Shown one piece after another: positions 53,575-57,828 of a DNA stretch of 64,000 bases; the stretch's first letter is position 1, and the number at the start of each line of letters is the position of its first letter. The stretch is from assembly GCF_025384765.1 (NCBI RefSeq), contig NZ_VHLL01000007.1, positions 1 to 64,000 of the forward strand, read 5' to 3'. The DNA is from Methanoculleus formosensis. Lineage in GTDB: Archaea > Halobacteriota > Methanomicrobia > Methanomicrobiales > Methanoculleaceae. Under the pieces are notes generated by a model that ran no database searches, had not been told where the DNA came from, and was given only the letters and a program-made list of their open reading frames with translations. The position numbers and the translations under genes were made by a program.

Positions 53575-54819
53575 ATCGCCATCACGTTTGAGGAACTGCG
53601 AGGAAGACGGGTCTACATCGAGACCTACGGGTGCACCTACAACCATGCCGACAGTCAGAGGCTCGCGGCGATACTGGAGGGGCTCGGCTGCACCATGACC
53701 GAACGGCCGGAGGAGGCGGACGCCGTCATCGTCAATACCTGCACGGTGATCGGCGCGACCGAACGAAAGATGCTCCGGCGCCTCGCTCTATTCGCCGACC
53801 GCGACCTCTACGTGACCGGGTGCATGCCGCTCGTCCAGATGGAGAGGATCCGTTCGGTCTGCACGCCGCACGTCATCCATCCGGACGAGATCCACGAACG
53901 TGCCGGCAGCGTCGGCACCCGGGGGCCGGGGGCGACCGGCGTGGTGCAGGTGGCAAGCGGGTGCGTCGGCCGGTGCAGTTACTGCATCACCCGGCTCGCC
54001 CGGGGGCGGCTTATAAGTGCACCGCGCGAGGCGATCGTCGACGCCGTCCGGGCTCTCGTCGCCTCGGGCGCCTATGAGATCCAGCTGACCGGGCAGGACG
54101 TGGCGGCGTGGGGGCTTGACCGCGGCGAGTCGCTCCCCGGGTTGCTGCAGGAGATAGCGAAGATCCCCGGGAGGTTCGCCGTCAGGCCGGGGATGATGCA
54201 CCCGGCCACGGTGCTCGGGATTCTTGAGCCCCTCGTCGAGGCCTACAAGAGCGAGAAGATCTTCCGGTTCCTCCACCTCCCCGTCCAATCGGGCTCCGAT
54301 ACCGTCCTCGAGCGGATGCAGCGCGACTACACCGCTGCCGACGTCGTCAGGATCGTCGATACGTTCCGGGAACGCTACCCGGATATGATGATCTCCTCCG
54401 ACTTCATCACCGGCTTTCCCGGGGAGACGGATGAGGAGTTTTCACAGACGCTTGCTCTCCTCCGGAGGGCGGCGTTCGTGAAGGTGAACATCACCCGCTA
54501 CTCCCGGCGGCCGGGCACGCCCGCCGCGGCCTTAAAAGACCTCCCCGAACGGATACGAAAAGATCGCTCCCGCGCACTTCTTGCCGAAGCAAACCGGATC
54601 TACGATGCCTACAACGAGCGCTGGGTCGGGCGGGAGACACCGGTCGTCGCGACCGAGAAGAACGCGCCGGGCTCGACCGTCTGCCGCAATCCCTGCTACC
54701 TCAACGTCGTCGTAGAAGGGGACCTGCCGTTCGGGTTTGCCGGGCGGGCGGTGATAACCGGGAACCATCGGCACTACGTCGCCGCCGAACTGATCCCGCC
54801 CGGGGACGAGAAAGTTTAG
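53575..54819 (+). CDS. tRNA methylthiotransferase (MiaB-like, archaeal CDKAL1/MtaB type)
   Basis: About 414 residues, radical-SAM enzyme that adds methylthio to t6A37 of tRNA. UPF0004 cysteines: YIETYGCTYN, VNTCTVIGATERK and VTGCMPL; radical-SAM cluster CVGRCSYC; the TRAM domain ends the chain. The first ATG in frame (53695) would cut off the first cluster cysteine. The open frame begins at 53518 and holds no ATG, GTG or TTG before it; AAGGAGA at 53564-53570 points to an ATC at 53575 or 53581, so I placed the start there. A rare start codon or a sequence error is possible. Confidence 0.8.
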   Translation: MAITFEELRGRRVYIETYGCTYNHADSQRLAAILEGLGCTMTERPEEADAVIVNTCTVIGATERKMLRRLALFADRDLYVTGCMPLVQMERIRSVCTPHVIHPDEIHERAGSVGTRGPGATGVVQVASGCVGRCSYCITRLARGRLISAPREAIVDAVRALVASGAYEIQLTGQDVAAWGLDRGESLPGLLQEIAKIPGRFAVRPGMMHPATVLGILEPLVEAYKSEKIFRFLHLPVQSGSDTVLERMQRDYTAADVVRIVDTFRERYPDMMISSDFITGFPGETDEEFSQTLALLRRAAFVKVNITRYSRRPGTPAAALKDLPERIRKDRSRALLAEANRIYDAYNERWVGRETPVVATEKNAPGSTVCRNPCYLNVVVEGDLPFGFAGRAVITGNHRHYVAAELIPPGDEKV

Positions 54820-54834
54820 CCCCGGCGAAACTTT
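54811..54834. promoter_or_regulatory. Inverted repeat upstream of the DtxR-type regulator gene
   Basis: AAAGTTT-N10-AAACTTT, perfect 7-base arms, overlapping the stop of the methylthiotransferase gene and lying 29-52 bases before the regulator ATG. The left half AAAGTTTAG recurs before the metal transporter at 55333, making it a candidate operator for the regulator. Confidence 0.55.
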
Positions 54835-54862
54835 TTCTTCCGGCAGGACATACCCTCTCCCC

Positions 54863-55306
54863 ATGCAGGGGATCACCGGCCAGGAACTCTCCTCGAAGAA
54901 GGCGGAATACCTCAAATACATCCACATGCAGGGCGACGTCGTGAAGACGACCGAGATCGCCGCCCACTTCTCCGTCGCGCCCTCGACGGTGACGAAAGCG
55001 CTCACGGAGATTGCAAAAGCGGGATACATTGAGCATACGCCCTACCACGGGGTGAGGCTCACGCTAACCGGTGCCGAGTATGCCCGGTTCCTGATCCGCC
55101 GCCACCGGCTCGTCGCCCTGGTGCTCAGCCGTCACGGGCTCGAGCCCGAAGAGGCTTGCAGAGAGGCAGGGAAGATCGAGCAGTGCTTCTCGAAGGACCT
55201 CACCGACAGGATGTGCACGTCGCTCGGGCACCCGATGATGAGCGTCTGCGGGGAGATCGAGCACGATCATTGCTGTTGCAGAACTCCCGGCGGAGACCGC
55301 AGGTGA
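54863..55306 (+). CDS. DtxR/MntR-family metal-dependent repressor
   Basis: 147 residues. Winged-helix N-terminus (KKAEYLKYIHMQGDVVKTTE, then STVTKALTEIAKAGYIEH) and a dimerisation/metal domain with FLIRRHRLVALVLSRHGLEP and CSKDLTDRM-type residues; the C-terminus is rich in Cys and His (CGEIEHDHCCCR). It probably senses Mn, Fe or Zn and controls the transporter that follows 64 bases later. Confidence 0.9.
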   Translation: MQGITGQELSSKKAEYLKYIHMQGDVVKTTEIAAHFSVAPSTVTKALTEIAKAGYIEHTPYHGVRLTLTGAEYARFLIRRHRLVALVLSRHGLEPEEACREAGKIEQCFSKDLTDRMCTSLGHPMMSVCGEIEHDHCCCRTPGGDRR

Positions 55307-55332
55307 CGGCGGAGCACCTCCGCCCCTGTGCA

Positions 55333-55356
55333 AAAGTTTAGACAGATACCAAACCC
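55333..55356. promoter_or_regulatory. Candidate operator before the metal ABC transporter
   Basis: AAAGTTTAG-N9-AAAC, a partial match to the inverted repeat at 54811; 15-38 bases before the binding-protein ATG. The right arm is degenerate (AAACCC). Confidence 0.45.
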
Positions 55357-55370
55357 AGAAGGGGAGAACG

Positions 55371-56252
55371 ATGGGGATGCAGAAGAGTCTCGTTGCAGCC
55401 GTATTCACCGTCCTTTTGCTCGTAGCAGCCACGGCGGGATGCACCGGCACCGACCGGCAGGACACCGGGGAGGTCGTCGTCGCGGTCACCATACCGCCCG
55501 AAGAAGAGTTCGTCGAGAGGGTGGGGGGCGATCATGTCCGGGTGATCCTGCTGGTGCCGCCGGGGGCCGACCCGCACACCTACGAACCCCCGCCGGGGGT
55601 TCTCGCCGAAGTCGCAAGGGCGGATATGCATGCCGCGGTCGGTTCGGGGATCGAGTTCGAACTCGCCTGGCGGGACAAGATCGCCGCCCTGAACCCGGAG
55701 ATGCTGGTCGTCGACTGTTCGCGCGGCGTCGACCTGATCAGGGCCGGTGACGGCGAAGATGGGGGAGCCGACCCCCATATCTGGACGTCCCCAAGAAACG
55801 CGAAGGTCATGGTCGAGGAGATCCGCGAGGGGCTCATAGCGGTCGACCCGGATAACGCCGAAGACTACCGCCGGAACGCCGACGTCTACCTCGGGGAACT
55901 CGACGCCCTTGACGCGGAGATCGCCGGTGCGCTCGCTCGATCGGGGGTGAAGACGGTCATGGTCTACCACTCGTCGTGGGCCTACCTTGCCCGGGACTAC
56001 GGCTTTGCTGAAGTGCCGATCGAGAGCGAAGGAAAGGAACCCTCGCCGCAGAGGATAGAGCACCTCATCAGGCAGGCGGAGGAGGAGCATATCAGGGTGA
56101 TATTCGCGTCGCCCGAGCACTCCACCCGGAACGCCGAGGTGATCGCGGACGCGGTCGGGGGCAGGGTGGTGACGGTGAGCCCGCTCGAAAAGGCTTACAT
56201 CGCGAACATGCGGCACGTGGCCTCGGCGTTTGCAGAGAGCGGCAGACCATGA
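55371..56252 (+). CDS. Metal ABC transporter substrate-binding lipoprotein (ZnuA/TroA type)
   Basis: 293 residues. Lipobox TAGC after a signal helix; cluster A-I fold with VPPGADPHTYEPPPGVLAEV (metal-binding His), GGADPHIWTSPRNAKVM (second His) and VMVYHSSWAYLARDYGF (third His). Typical for Zn or Mn uptake. Two ATGs three codons apart; GGGGAG stands before the first. First gene of a three-gene operon behind the DtxR-type regulator. Confidence 0.92.
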   Translation: MGMQKSLVAAVFTVLLLVAATAGCTGTDRQDTGEVVVAVTIPPEEEFVERVGGDHVRVILLVPPGADPHTYEPPPGVLAEVARADMHAAVGSGIEFELAWRDKIAALNPEMLVVDCSRGVDLIRAGDGEDGGADPHIWTSPRNAKVMVEEIREGLIAVDPDNAEDYRRNADVYLGELDALDAEIAGALARSGVKTVMVYHSSWAYLARDYGFAEVPIESEGKEPSPQRIEHLIRQAEEEHIRVIFASPEHSTRNAEVIADAVGGRVVTVSPLEKAYIANMRHVASAFAESGRP

Positions 56253-57016
56253 CCGCTCCCGTGATCGAGGTCGAGGACGTCTGGGTCAGGCTGCGCGGCC
56301 ATACCGTCCTCGAAGAGGTGAACGTCGCCGTCTATCCGGACGACTTCTACGCGATCATCGGGCCGAACGGCGGCGGGAAGACAACGCTTCTGAAGGTGAT
56401 CCTCGGCCTCCTTCGCCCCACCCGTGGCACAGTCAGGATCCTCGGCGAAACGGGGGGGGCGGCGAGGAGGAAGATCGGCTACGTTCCGCAGTTTCGGACG
56501 TTCGACTTCGAGTATCCCATCACCGTGCAGGAGATGGTTCTCTCCGGCCGCCTCGGCCACATCACCCGAATCCCGCGGCGCTACGACGAGGAAGACCACA
56601 CCAGGGCACAGGAGGCTCTCGAGACGATGGGCATCGCCGGTCTCGCCGACCGGCAGATCCGGAACCTCTCCGGCGGAGAGCAGCAGCGGGCGATCATCGC
56701 CAGGGCGCTCGTCGGCGACCCGAAGGTGCTCCTCCTCGACGAGCCGACGGTCTACGTGGACGCCCCGACGGCGGCGCAGTTCTACCATATCCTTGATTGG
56801 CTCCGCAGACAGATGGCGATCGTCCTCGTGACCCACGACATCGGGGTGATCCCGGAGCACGTGACCCGGGTCGCCTGCCTGAACCGGCGCCTCTATACGC
56901 ACGACACGAACGAGATCACGCCGGATATGATCGAGGCCGCATACCACTGCCCGGTCGATCTCATCGCCCACGGGATCCCGCACCGGGTCTTCTCCGAGCA
57001 CGTAGAGGAGGAGTGA
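56249..57016 (+). CDS. Metal ABC transporter ATP-binding protein (ZnuC type)
   Basis: 255 residues: Walker A GPNGGGKTTLL, Q-loop VPQFRTFDFEYPITVQEMVL, signature LSGGEQQRAIIARALVGDPK, Walker B VLLLDEPTVYVD, switch LVTHDIGVI. Overlaps the binding protein gene by four bases. A run of eight G (56452-56459) encodes part of ETGGAA. Confidence 0.94.
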   Translation: MTAPVIEVEDVWVRLRGHTVLEEVNVAVYPDDFYAIIGPNGGGKTTLLKVILGLLRPTRGTVRILGETGGAARRKIGYVPQFRTFDFEYPITVQEMVLSGRLGHITRIPRRYDEEDHTRAQEALETMGIAGLADRQIRNLSGGEQQRAIIARALVGDPKVLLLDEPTVYVDAPTAAQFYHILDWLRRQMAIVLVTHDIGVIPEHVTRVACLNRRLYTHDTNEITPDMIEAAYHCPVDLIAHGIPHRVFSEHVEEE

Positions 57017-57018
57017 GT

Positions 57019-57828
57019 ATGTTCGAGGTGCTCGGGCTCGAGTTCTTCAGGAACGCCCTCATCGCCGGGGTGCTCGCGAGCATCGCCTGCGGCATCATCG
57101 GCACCTACGTCGTGGTGCGGCGGATGGTCTCGGTCAGCGGCGGCATCTCCCACGCGGCCTTCGGCGGGATCGGGCTTGGCTACTTCCTCGGGATAGACCC
57201 GCTCCTCGGCGCCGCCGCCTTCACCGTGGCGACGGCGCTCGGGATGGGCGCGCTTCAGCTCCGCGCCCGGCAGCAGATGGACACCATCATCGGCGCGGTC
57301 TGGGCGGCGGGGATGGCCATCGGGATCCTCTTCGTCTACCTGACACCGGGATTCGCCCCCGACCTCTTCTCCTACCTCTTCGGAAACATCCTCCTCGTCC
57401 CAGGGGGAGACATCCTGCTGATGGGGGTGCTCGTCGTCATCATCGTCGCCGTCGTGGCCCTCCTCTACCGGGAGTTCCAGGCGGTCACGTTCGACCCGGA
57501 CTACGCGACGGTCATGAACCTCCCGGTGGAGCGGCTCTCGCTCCTCCTCCTCGTGCTCGTCGCGCTCACGGTGGTGATGCTGATCCGGGTGGTGGGGATC
57601 ATCCTCGTGATCGCGCTCCTGACGCTCCCCGCGGCGATCAGCCGCCTCTACACCACCCGCATCTGGAGCATGATGCTCCTCGCGGTCGCCCTCGGCATCG
57701 CCTTCACCCTGACGGGGATAGGGCTCTCCTACATCGCGAACGTCCCCTCGGGCGCGACGATCATCCTGGTGAGCACGCTCGCGTATGCGGGCGCCCTCGG
57801 GGTCGAACGCCTTCGCCAGGACGATTAG
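57019..57828 (+). CDS. Metal ABC transporter permease (ZnuB type)
   Basis: 269 residues from ATG 57019; eight or nine membrane helices of the ABC-3 family. Hallmarks: IAGVLASIACGIIGTYVVVR, VSGGISHAAFGGIGLGYFLG and RVVGIILVIALLTLPAAISR. Two bases after the ATPase stop. Completes the zinc- or manganese-type importer. Confidence 0.94.
   Translation: MFEVLGLEFFRNALIAGVLASIACGIIGTYVVVRRMVSVSGGISHAAFGGIGLGYFLGIDPLLGAAAFTVATALGMGALQLRARQQMDTIIGAVWAAGMAIGILFVYLTPGFAPDLFSYLFGNILLVPGGDILLMGVLVVIIVAVVALLYREFQAVTFDPDYATVMNLPVERLSLLLLVLVALTVVMLIRVVGIILVIALLTLPAAISRLYTTRIWSMMLLAVALGIAFTLTGIGLSYIANVPSGATIILVSTLAYAGALGVERLRQDD

Follow-up and report, generated by a model that had tools for sequence, protein, structure and literature searches.

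Methanoculleus is a methanogen of biogas plants. The stretch of DNA analysed here (the window, 64,000 nucleotides) comes from a Methanoculleus formosensis genome of 2,645,187 bases on 19 contigs (2.65-Mb) and contains a four-gene metal-uptake locus. It encodes, in this order, a ZntR-like repressor of the DtxR family, ZnuA, an ABC ATPase and an ABC-3 permease. The regulator gene (54863-55306, plus strand, 147 aa; here called dtxR) lies downstream of the gene for a MiaB-like methylthiotransferase (53695-54819) and is followed, on the same strand, by the genes of a ZnuA-type metal-binding protein (55371-56252; PF01297, 235.1 bits), a ZnuC-type transporter ATPase (56249-57016; PF00005) and a ZnuB-type permease of the ABC-3 family (57019-57828; PF00950). 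The top NCBIfam models were an anchored-repeat ATPase, MntA and AztA for the ATPase and AztB for the permease, all of them below their cut-offs. Two plus-strand features precede the first two genes: a motif block before dtxR (AAAGTTTAG-N8-AAACTTT, 54811-54834), which was compared across 34 Methanoculleus genomes, and a 19-bp dyad before znuA (GTTTAGACAGATACCAAAC, 55336-55354), which is the predicted operator. A perfect G+C-rich hairpin (GGCGGAG-CAC-CTCCGCC, 55308-55324) stands directly past the dtxR stop codon, its 3' end 11 bp ahead of the znuA dyad; inspection by eye did not reveal it in the compared relatives.

The regulator comprises a winged helix, a dimerisation/metal domain and a Cys/His-rich C-terminus and is too short for an SH3 domain. 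Both Pfam domains of the DtxR family were found above their cut-offs (PF01325: 46.2 bits, cut-off 26; PF02742: 50.4 bits, cut-off 27), and an orthologue alignment, an AlphaFold2 model and a Foldseek search were used in addition for its classification. Named relatives of the regulator with 79-92% identity are mostly from Methanoculleus, the rest being methanogen or Euryarchaeota MAGs (18 loci); loci L032-L049, which largely repeat species of other loci, were used for the structure alignment only. The AlphaFold2 model has a mean pLDDT of 78.5, and the metal site is unreadable from it because residues 126-147 are not confident. The closest solved structure in both fold and sequence, and of similar size, is DR2539 (8pvt, 8pw0), a manganese repressor of Deinococcus that is annotated as manganese-dependent (Foldseek, 32-35% identity); the archaeal Cys/His-rich tail, in contrast, lies outside the sequence alignment and in the low-confidence part of the model.

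A first-pass annotation had drawn attention to AAAGTTTAG before both the DtxR-type and the ZnuA-type gene, with an AAAC element 8-9 bases later, and this observation was confirmed. The 9-mer occurs at 54811-54819 and 55333-55341, with no third copy on either strand of the window, and AAAC is spaced 8 bases after the first copy (54828-54831) and 9 bases after the second (55351-55354). The chance expectation in the window is 0.05 copies (mean of 100 dinucleotide shuffles), and none of the 100 shuffles reached two. The whole genome contains five copies, compared to 2+2 for the reversed-pattern control, and AAAGTTTAGN8AAAC is found at one place, as is its reversed control. Within the window, TTTRG-N6 or N7-CNAAA matches these two places only and no other gene. 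As had also been claimed, the first copy is part of an exact inverted repeat, AAAGTTT-N10-AAACTTT (54811-54834), but this symmetry is not conserved: the opening AAA of the 9-mer varies among relatives, and the exact AAAGTTT/AAACTTT repeat can therefore not be what has evolved as a unit; the exact 9-mer was ruled out as the conserved unit for the same reason. Judged from the relatives, the evolved unit exceeds the 9-mer and at znuA is a 19-bp dyad.

For the comparison within the genus, the upstream regions of 34 Methanoculleus genomes, the own one included, were used, with gene starts in the relatives extrapolated from tblastn. A 35th genome (G028, 83% complete) gave a weak regulator match only and was left out of all genus counts. 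One locus (L052) stops at a contig edge before znuA and is absent from the 33 znuA regions; its genome (G021) shows a TTTAGN6ACCAAA site. All 33 regions with znuA in the fetched stretch contain TTTAG-N7-CYAAR inside the 19-bp dyad. The sites have the form TTT-N11-AAA, and the strict pattern fits 31 of the 33, the remaining two ending in AAG. Among four other genera of the own family, it fits three znuA regions.

Genome-wide, TTTAGN6ACCAAA was found at 29 places in 35 Methanoculleus genomes, about one per genome, and its reversed control at 7. At 27 of these places the match lies at the dtxR-znuA junction, just 3' of dtxR where znuA begins; as the pattern was derived from the znuA sites, what counts in this result is that no more than two matches fall outside the junction. 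The relaxed pattern TTTRGN7CYAAA matches 61 distinct places in the 35 genomes, of which 32 lie before znuA, while its reversed control gave 117. Occurrence at random frequency, which the first-pass annotation had named as an argument against an operator, is thus not seen for the tight pattern but is seen for the relaxed one. Since the relaxed dyad outside znuA is not above background in these 35 genomes, the predicted regulon appears limited to this one locus. A larger regulon was considered and rejected: in the own genome the relaxed dyad added only TTTAGTATGGGTCCAAA on the minus strand (G000:C1:340405-340421; L155 2006-2022), located about 55 bp before a gene for a DUF2085 membrane protein, and no homologue of it could be found in the other 34 Methanoculleus genomes searched.

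The analysis was extended to other families of the same order, with a matrix for which the 33 Methanoculleus znuA sites were the only training data. The test set consisted of 39 loci, one per genome, which encode the regulator at 1e-25, and the control set of 17 znuA loci from genomes of the order in which the regulator search gave no hit at 1e-25. In a threshold-free ranking, the best position was located upstream (180 bp) of or just inside dtxR or znuA in 27/39 loci compared to 4/17 controls; none of the four controls exceeded 7.0, and low scores also occur among the 27. A score of at least 9 within 150 bp upstream of dtxR or znuA was reached at 24 of the 39 loci and at none of the 17 controls (nominal Fisher P 6e-6, relatedness ignored), but the threshold of 9 was set after the ranking scores and upstream regions were known, and the threshold-free ranking is the cleaner figure. 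At this threshold, the 10,187 bp in front of dtxR or znuA contain 26 matches and 126,580 bp elsewhere contain five, two of the latter preceding cbiM-like genes (L110, L111). Outside the own family the site takes the form TTTGG-N7-CCAAA. Sites above the threshold precede dtxR at 12/39 and znuA at 14/29 loci, the dtxR sites being mostly about 50 bp ahead of the start codon.

The recovery differed by family, with sites of at least 9 at 10/11 loci in f4, 10/13 in f5, 4/10 in f3 and 0/5 in f6. Altogether 15 of the 39 regulator-bearing loci outside the own family lack a site at this threshold, including six of ten in f3 and all five in f6 (L106, L119, L124, L173, L174), where regulator and znuA are kept without a recognisable site. 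Two of the latter (L106 and L119) have TTTTACCCAA-N-CGAAA before dtxR in common, which is perhaps an altered operator. Among the controls, L168 offers only about 110 bp of upstream sequence. In control L170 (genome G102), the DNA just upstream of znuA partially resembles the regulator (residues 99-139 at 44% identity), and a copy there may be broken or have diverged strongly; this control is possibly not regulator-free, and without it the control count is 0/16.

In 17 of the 33 Methanoculleus regions, the znuA site has a TATA-like box starting 20-27 bp ahead of it, and in 9/11 f4 loci such a box lies about 19-22 bp ahead, both being raw counts without a chance baseline. With the box 20-27 bp ahead, the dyad lies near the expected transcription start, and this position fits repression through a blocked polymerase. 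No upstream TATA-like box precedes the znuA site in the window and in 15 other Methanoculleus (n=33); in these cases, transcription of znuA may start at the dtxR promoter or depend on the AT-rich left half of the site as a weak box.

Before dtxR, the pattern TTTRG-N-[CG]GAAA is kept in 34/34 Methanoculleus. The left half is TTTAG in 33 genomes and TTTGG in one (L018), and the right half is CGAAA in 32, GGAAA in two and never has CC; TTT and AAA are 10 bases apart in 33/34 and 11 in one. In the window, the conserved core reads TTTAG...CGAAACTTTTT, and the block scores -5.7 on the znuA-site matrix. Of the four dtxR regions examined from other genera of the family, one fits the strict pattern. 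TAG at 54817-54819 also terminates the MiaB-like gene upstream. The box TAG is, however, not an in-frame stop of this gene in 7/34 genomes (a count anchored on TAGCC, which for L018 caught the stop rather than the TTTGG box), indicating that the DNA itself is kept and not only the codon; a stop-codon constraint as the sole cause of TTTAG before dtxR was ruled out on these grounds. The right part of the block, CGAAACTTTTTC (54826-54837), is located about 30 bp before the start codon and resembles the BRE and TATA consensus, as an apparent dtxR core promoter, so that a protein bound to the block would cover the promoter. By its sequence, the block is a degenerate, shorter-spaced version of the dyad, fused to the apparent core promoter, and with its left half site and promoter overlap 54811-54834 is a probable autoregulatory operator. 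The one-base-shorter spacing is awkward, as it is hard to fit with one dimer geometry. The layout of an autoregulated metal-uptake repressor that the first-pass annotation had expected is therefore upheld in part: a shared operator at znuA is well supported, whereas the support for autoregulation is less direct.

Taken together, these results make it quite probable that the dyad at 55336-55354 serves as operator for a ZntR-type zinc-uptake repressor, which in addition probably regulates itself. In a metal-replete cell (the metal being most probably zinc), a metal-bound repressor dimer would sit on the dyad and block transcription of the importer, and under scarce metal it would be released. 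Bound to 54811-54834, the repressor would lie over its own core promoter, most probably resulting in negative autoregulation. Four points support the shared operator at znuA: it is conserved within the genus, a matrix not trained on other families recovers it there, it is absent where no regulator was found, and it lies near the expected start. Two more DtxR-family proteins are encoded in the own genome and could be alternative binders of the sites.

Other explanations were weighed against this model. A repetition of the 9-mer by chance would agree with the fact that relatives keep neither its opening AAA nor the exact 7-bp inverted repeat, but is extremely improbable in view of the 0.05 copies expected in shuffles, the junction position of 27 of the 29 tight matches, the sites in 33/33 znuA regions, the matrix matches in other families and the core that was found to be conserved in relatives. 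Alternatively, the motif could be no operator but a core promoter element (BRE/TATA) of the general archaeal type, present before both genes by coincidence. The right half before dtxR, CGAAACTTTTTC, does resemble BRE plus TATA, some 30 bp before the start codon, and AAAAGTTTAGA could serve as such a box in the window and the 15 others of 33 Methanoculleus that show no other one before the znuA site. This reading is nevertheless quite improbable: TTTAGN6ACCAAA occurs about once per genome and almost always at the dtxR-znuA junction, the dyad is found at no other gene of the window, a separate TATA-like box is present ahead of the site in 17/33 Methanoculleus and 9/11 f4 loci (again without a chance baseline), and none of the 17 genomes of the order that gave no regulator hit has the site before znuA. 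A split interpretation, in which the znuA dyad is an operator and the dtxR block only a conserved core promoter, so that the regulator is not autoregulated in Methanoculleus, we regard as a possible, though not the favoured, one. It would explain the matrix score of -5.7 and the right half with CG or GG but never CC, and the conservation before dtxR does lie partly in the BRE/TATA-like stretch; TTTRG, on the other hand, is kept in 34/34 genomes although it is upstream of this stretch and not always a stop codon, and sites above the threshold precede dtxR at 12/39 loci of other families.

The metal sensed by the repressor is most probably zinc, a preference that rests on the transporter and on a literature name. 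The best solved relative of ZnuA is the zinc-uptake protein 2ov1 (E 1.2e-56), presumably ZnuA of Synechocystis, with which three metal-binding His are aligned, as expected for a ZnuA. Manganese or another ion in place of zinc would be in line with the manganese-dependent DR2539 as closest solved fold, with NCBIfam manganese models that match both the regulator and ZnuA below cut-off, and with a CbiM-like importer, of a family annotated for cobalt, as the partner in some relatives. We consider this alternative unlikely. Of four metal ligands of MntR (H77, E99, E102, H103), H77 and E102 correspond to H81 and E106, which are kept in 77/77 regulator orthologues, but E99 and H103 correspond to G103 and Q107 and are not kept; judged by sequence, the missing ligands argue against an MntR orthologue and not against the DtxR family. 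C99, C118, H123 and C129 are likewise invariant in 77/77 orthologues, and H134 and C138 are kept in 71/77 and 74/77. The regulator remained below the curated cut-offs of the MntR NCBIfam equivalogs (65.8, 58.8 and 41.2 bits versus 350, 153 and 138). Two of the CbiM-like proteins reached 55 and 59 bits with the named cobalt transporter model that matched best, whose cut-off is 205.

A DtxR-like predicted repressor of znuABC, ZntR (MA0022), has been described for Methanosarcina, and the title of a supplement announces candidate sites upstream of COG0523, ZntR and ZnuABC genes; the motif used in that study was trained on methanogen znuACB regions (PMC2770081). The main text names Methanosarcina and nowhere mentions Methanoculleus (PMC2770081). 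Both systems have a DtxR-like regulator in a methanogen, and the Methanoculleus locus differs in having one half site TTTAG; it also shows the features of the ZntR type, a DtxR-like gene linked to znuABC and shared candidate sites upstream, the dtxR site being degenerate in Methanoculleus. The locus thus adds another case, with good support, to a type of regulation that had been predicted for methanogens before (PMC2770081). No title among the literature matches listed dealt with this locus or these sites in Methanoculleus. Leyn and Rodionov, in 2015, reportedly used comparative genomics to describe palindromic DtxR-family sites before metal transporters for archaeal FetR, MntR and ZntR, zinc regulons included, and their work is said to extend the earlier methanogen ZntR prediction. 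The half sites of IdeR/DtxR operators, TTAGG/CCTAA, are 9 bp apart, whereas TTTRG/CYAAA in Methanoculleus are 7 bp apart. The bacterial operator is a 19-bp palindrome of CCTAA repeats to which two dimers bind, and it resembles the Methanoculleus dyad in length, dyad symmetry, similar outer half sites and the DtxR-family fold of the regulator (PMC8464063). For Methanothermobacter, a NikR homologue beside znuABC has instead been proposed as the zinc regulator (PMC3087415). The present analysis adds a precise predicted operator and a likely one-locus zinc-uptake regulon in Methanoculleus, with a motif that can be scanned for across the order.

In five genomes of the order without a ZnuA hit, a CbiM-like gene (protein start MAHIH) was found downstream of the regulator (L178, L179, L110, L111, L177). 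CbiQ- and CbiO-like genes lie between the two in the first four, and a CbiQ-like gene only in L177; in L109, L117 and L176, CbiQ- and CbiO-like genes follow until the stretch ends. Pfam assignments were made for three L179 proteins only (CbiQ, ABC_tran, CbiM), the others being assigned by eye from their likeness. A near-perfect site is located upstream of the cbiM-like gene in 2/5 genomes (L179, L110) and a weaker one (9.8) in L111, while the same rule gave no site before this gene in L177 and L178. No named cobalt model matched the 56-residue CbiM-like fragment of L110, and no solved relative was found for the L179 protein. We tentatively propose, as a possibility rather than an expectation, that one repressor and its operator persist across the order and that the controlled importer was swapped, with ZnuABC in most lineages and, in f3 and part of f5, a divergent cassette that is CbiM/CbiQ/CbiO-like. 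If true, the CbiM-like proteins with the N-terminus MAHIH..DG would import zinc instead of cobalt or nickel. The operator is also of help in working out which metal is carried by the divergent CbiM-type importer that other families have next to this regulator.

Regulator orthologues with 45-58% identity are also present in f8 and f14, two more distant families of the phylum. Eight of the 15 loci from these families have a site, one of which is probably an AT-rich false hit, and three of the 15 adjoin znuA with TTTGG-N7-CCAAA-like sites. At the more distant locus L195, znuA is preceded by two good dyads in tandem, which lie 543 and 583 bp away from the start of dtxR; another dyad stands before dtxR.
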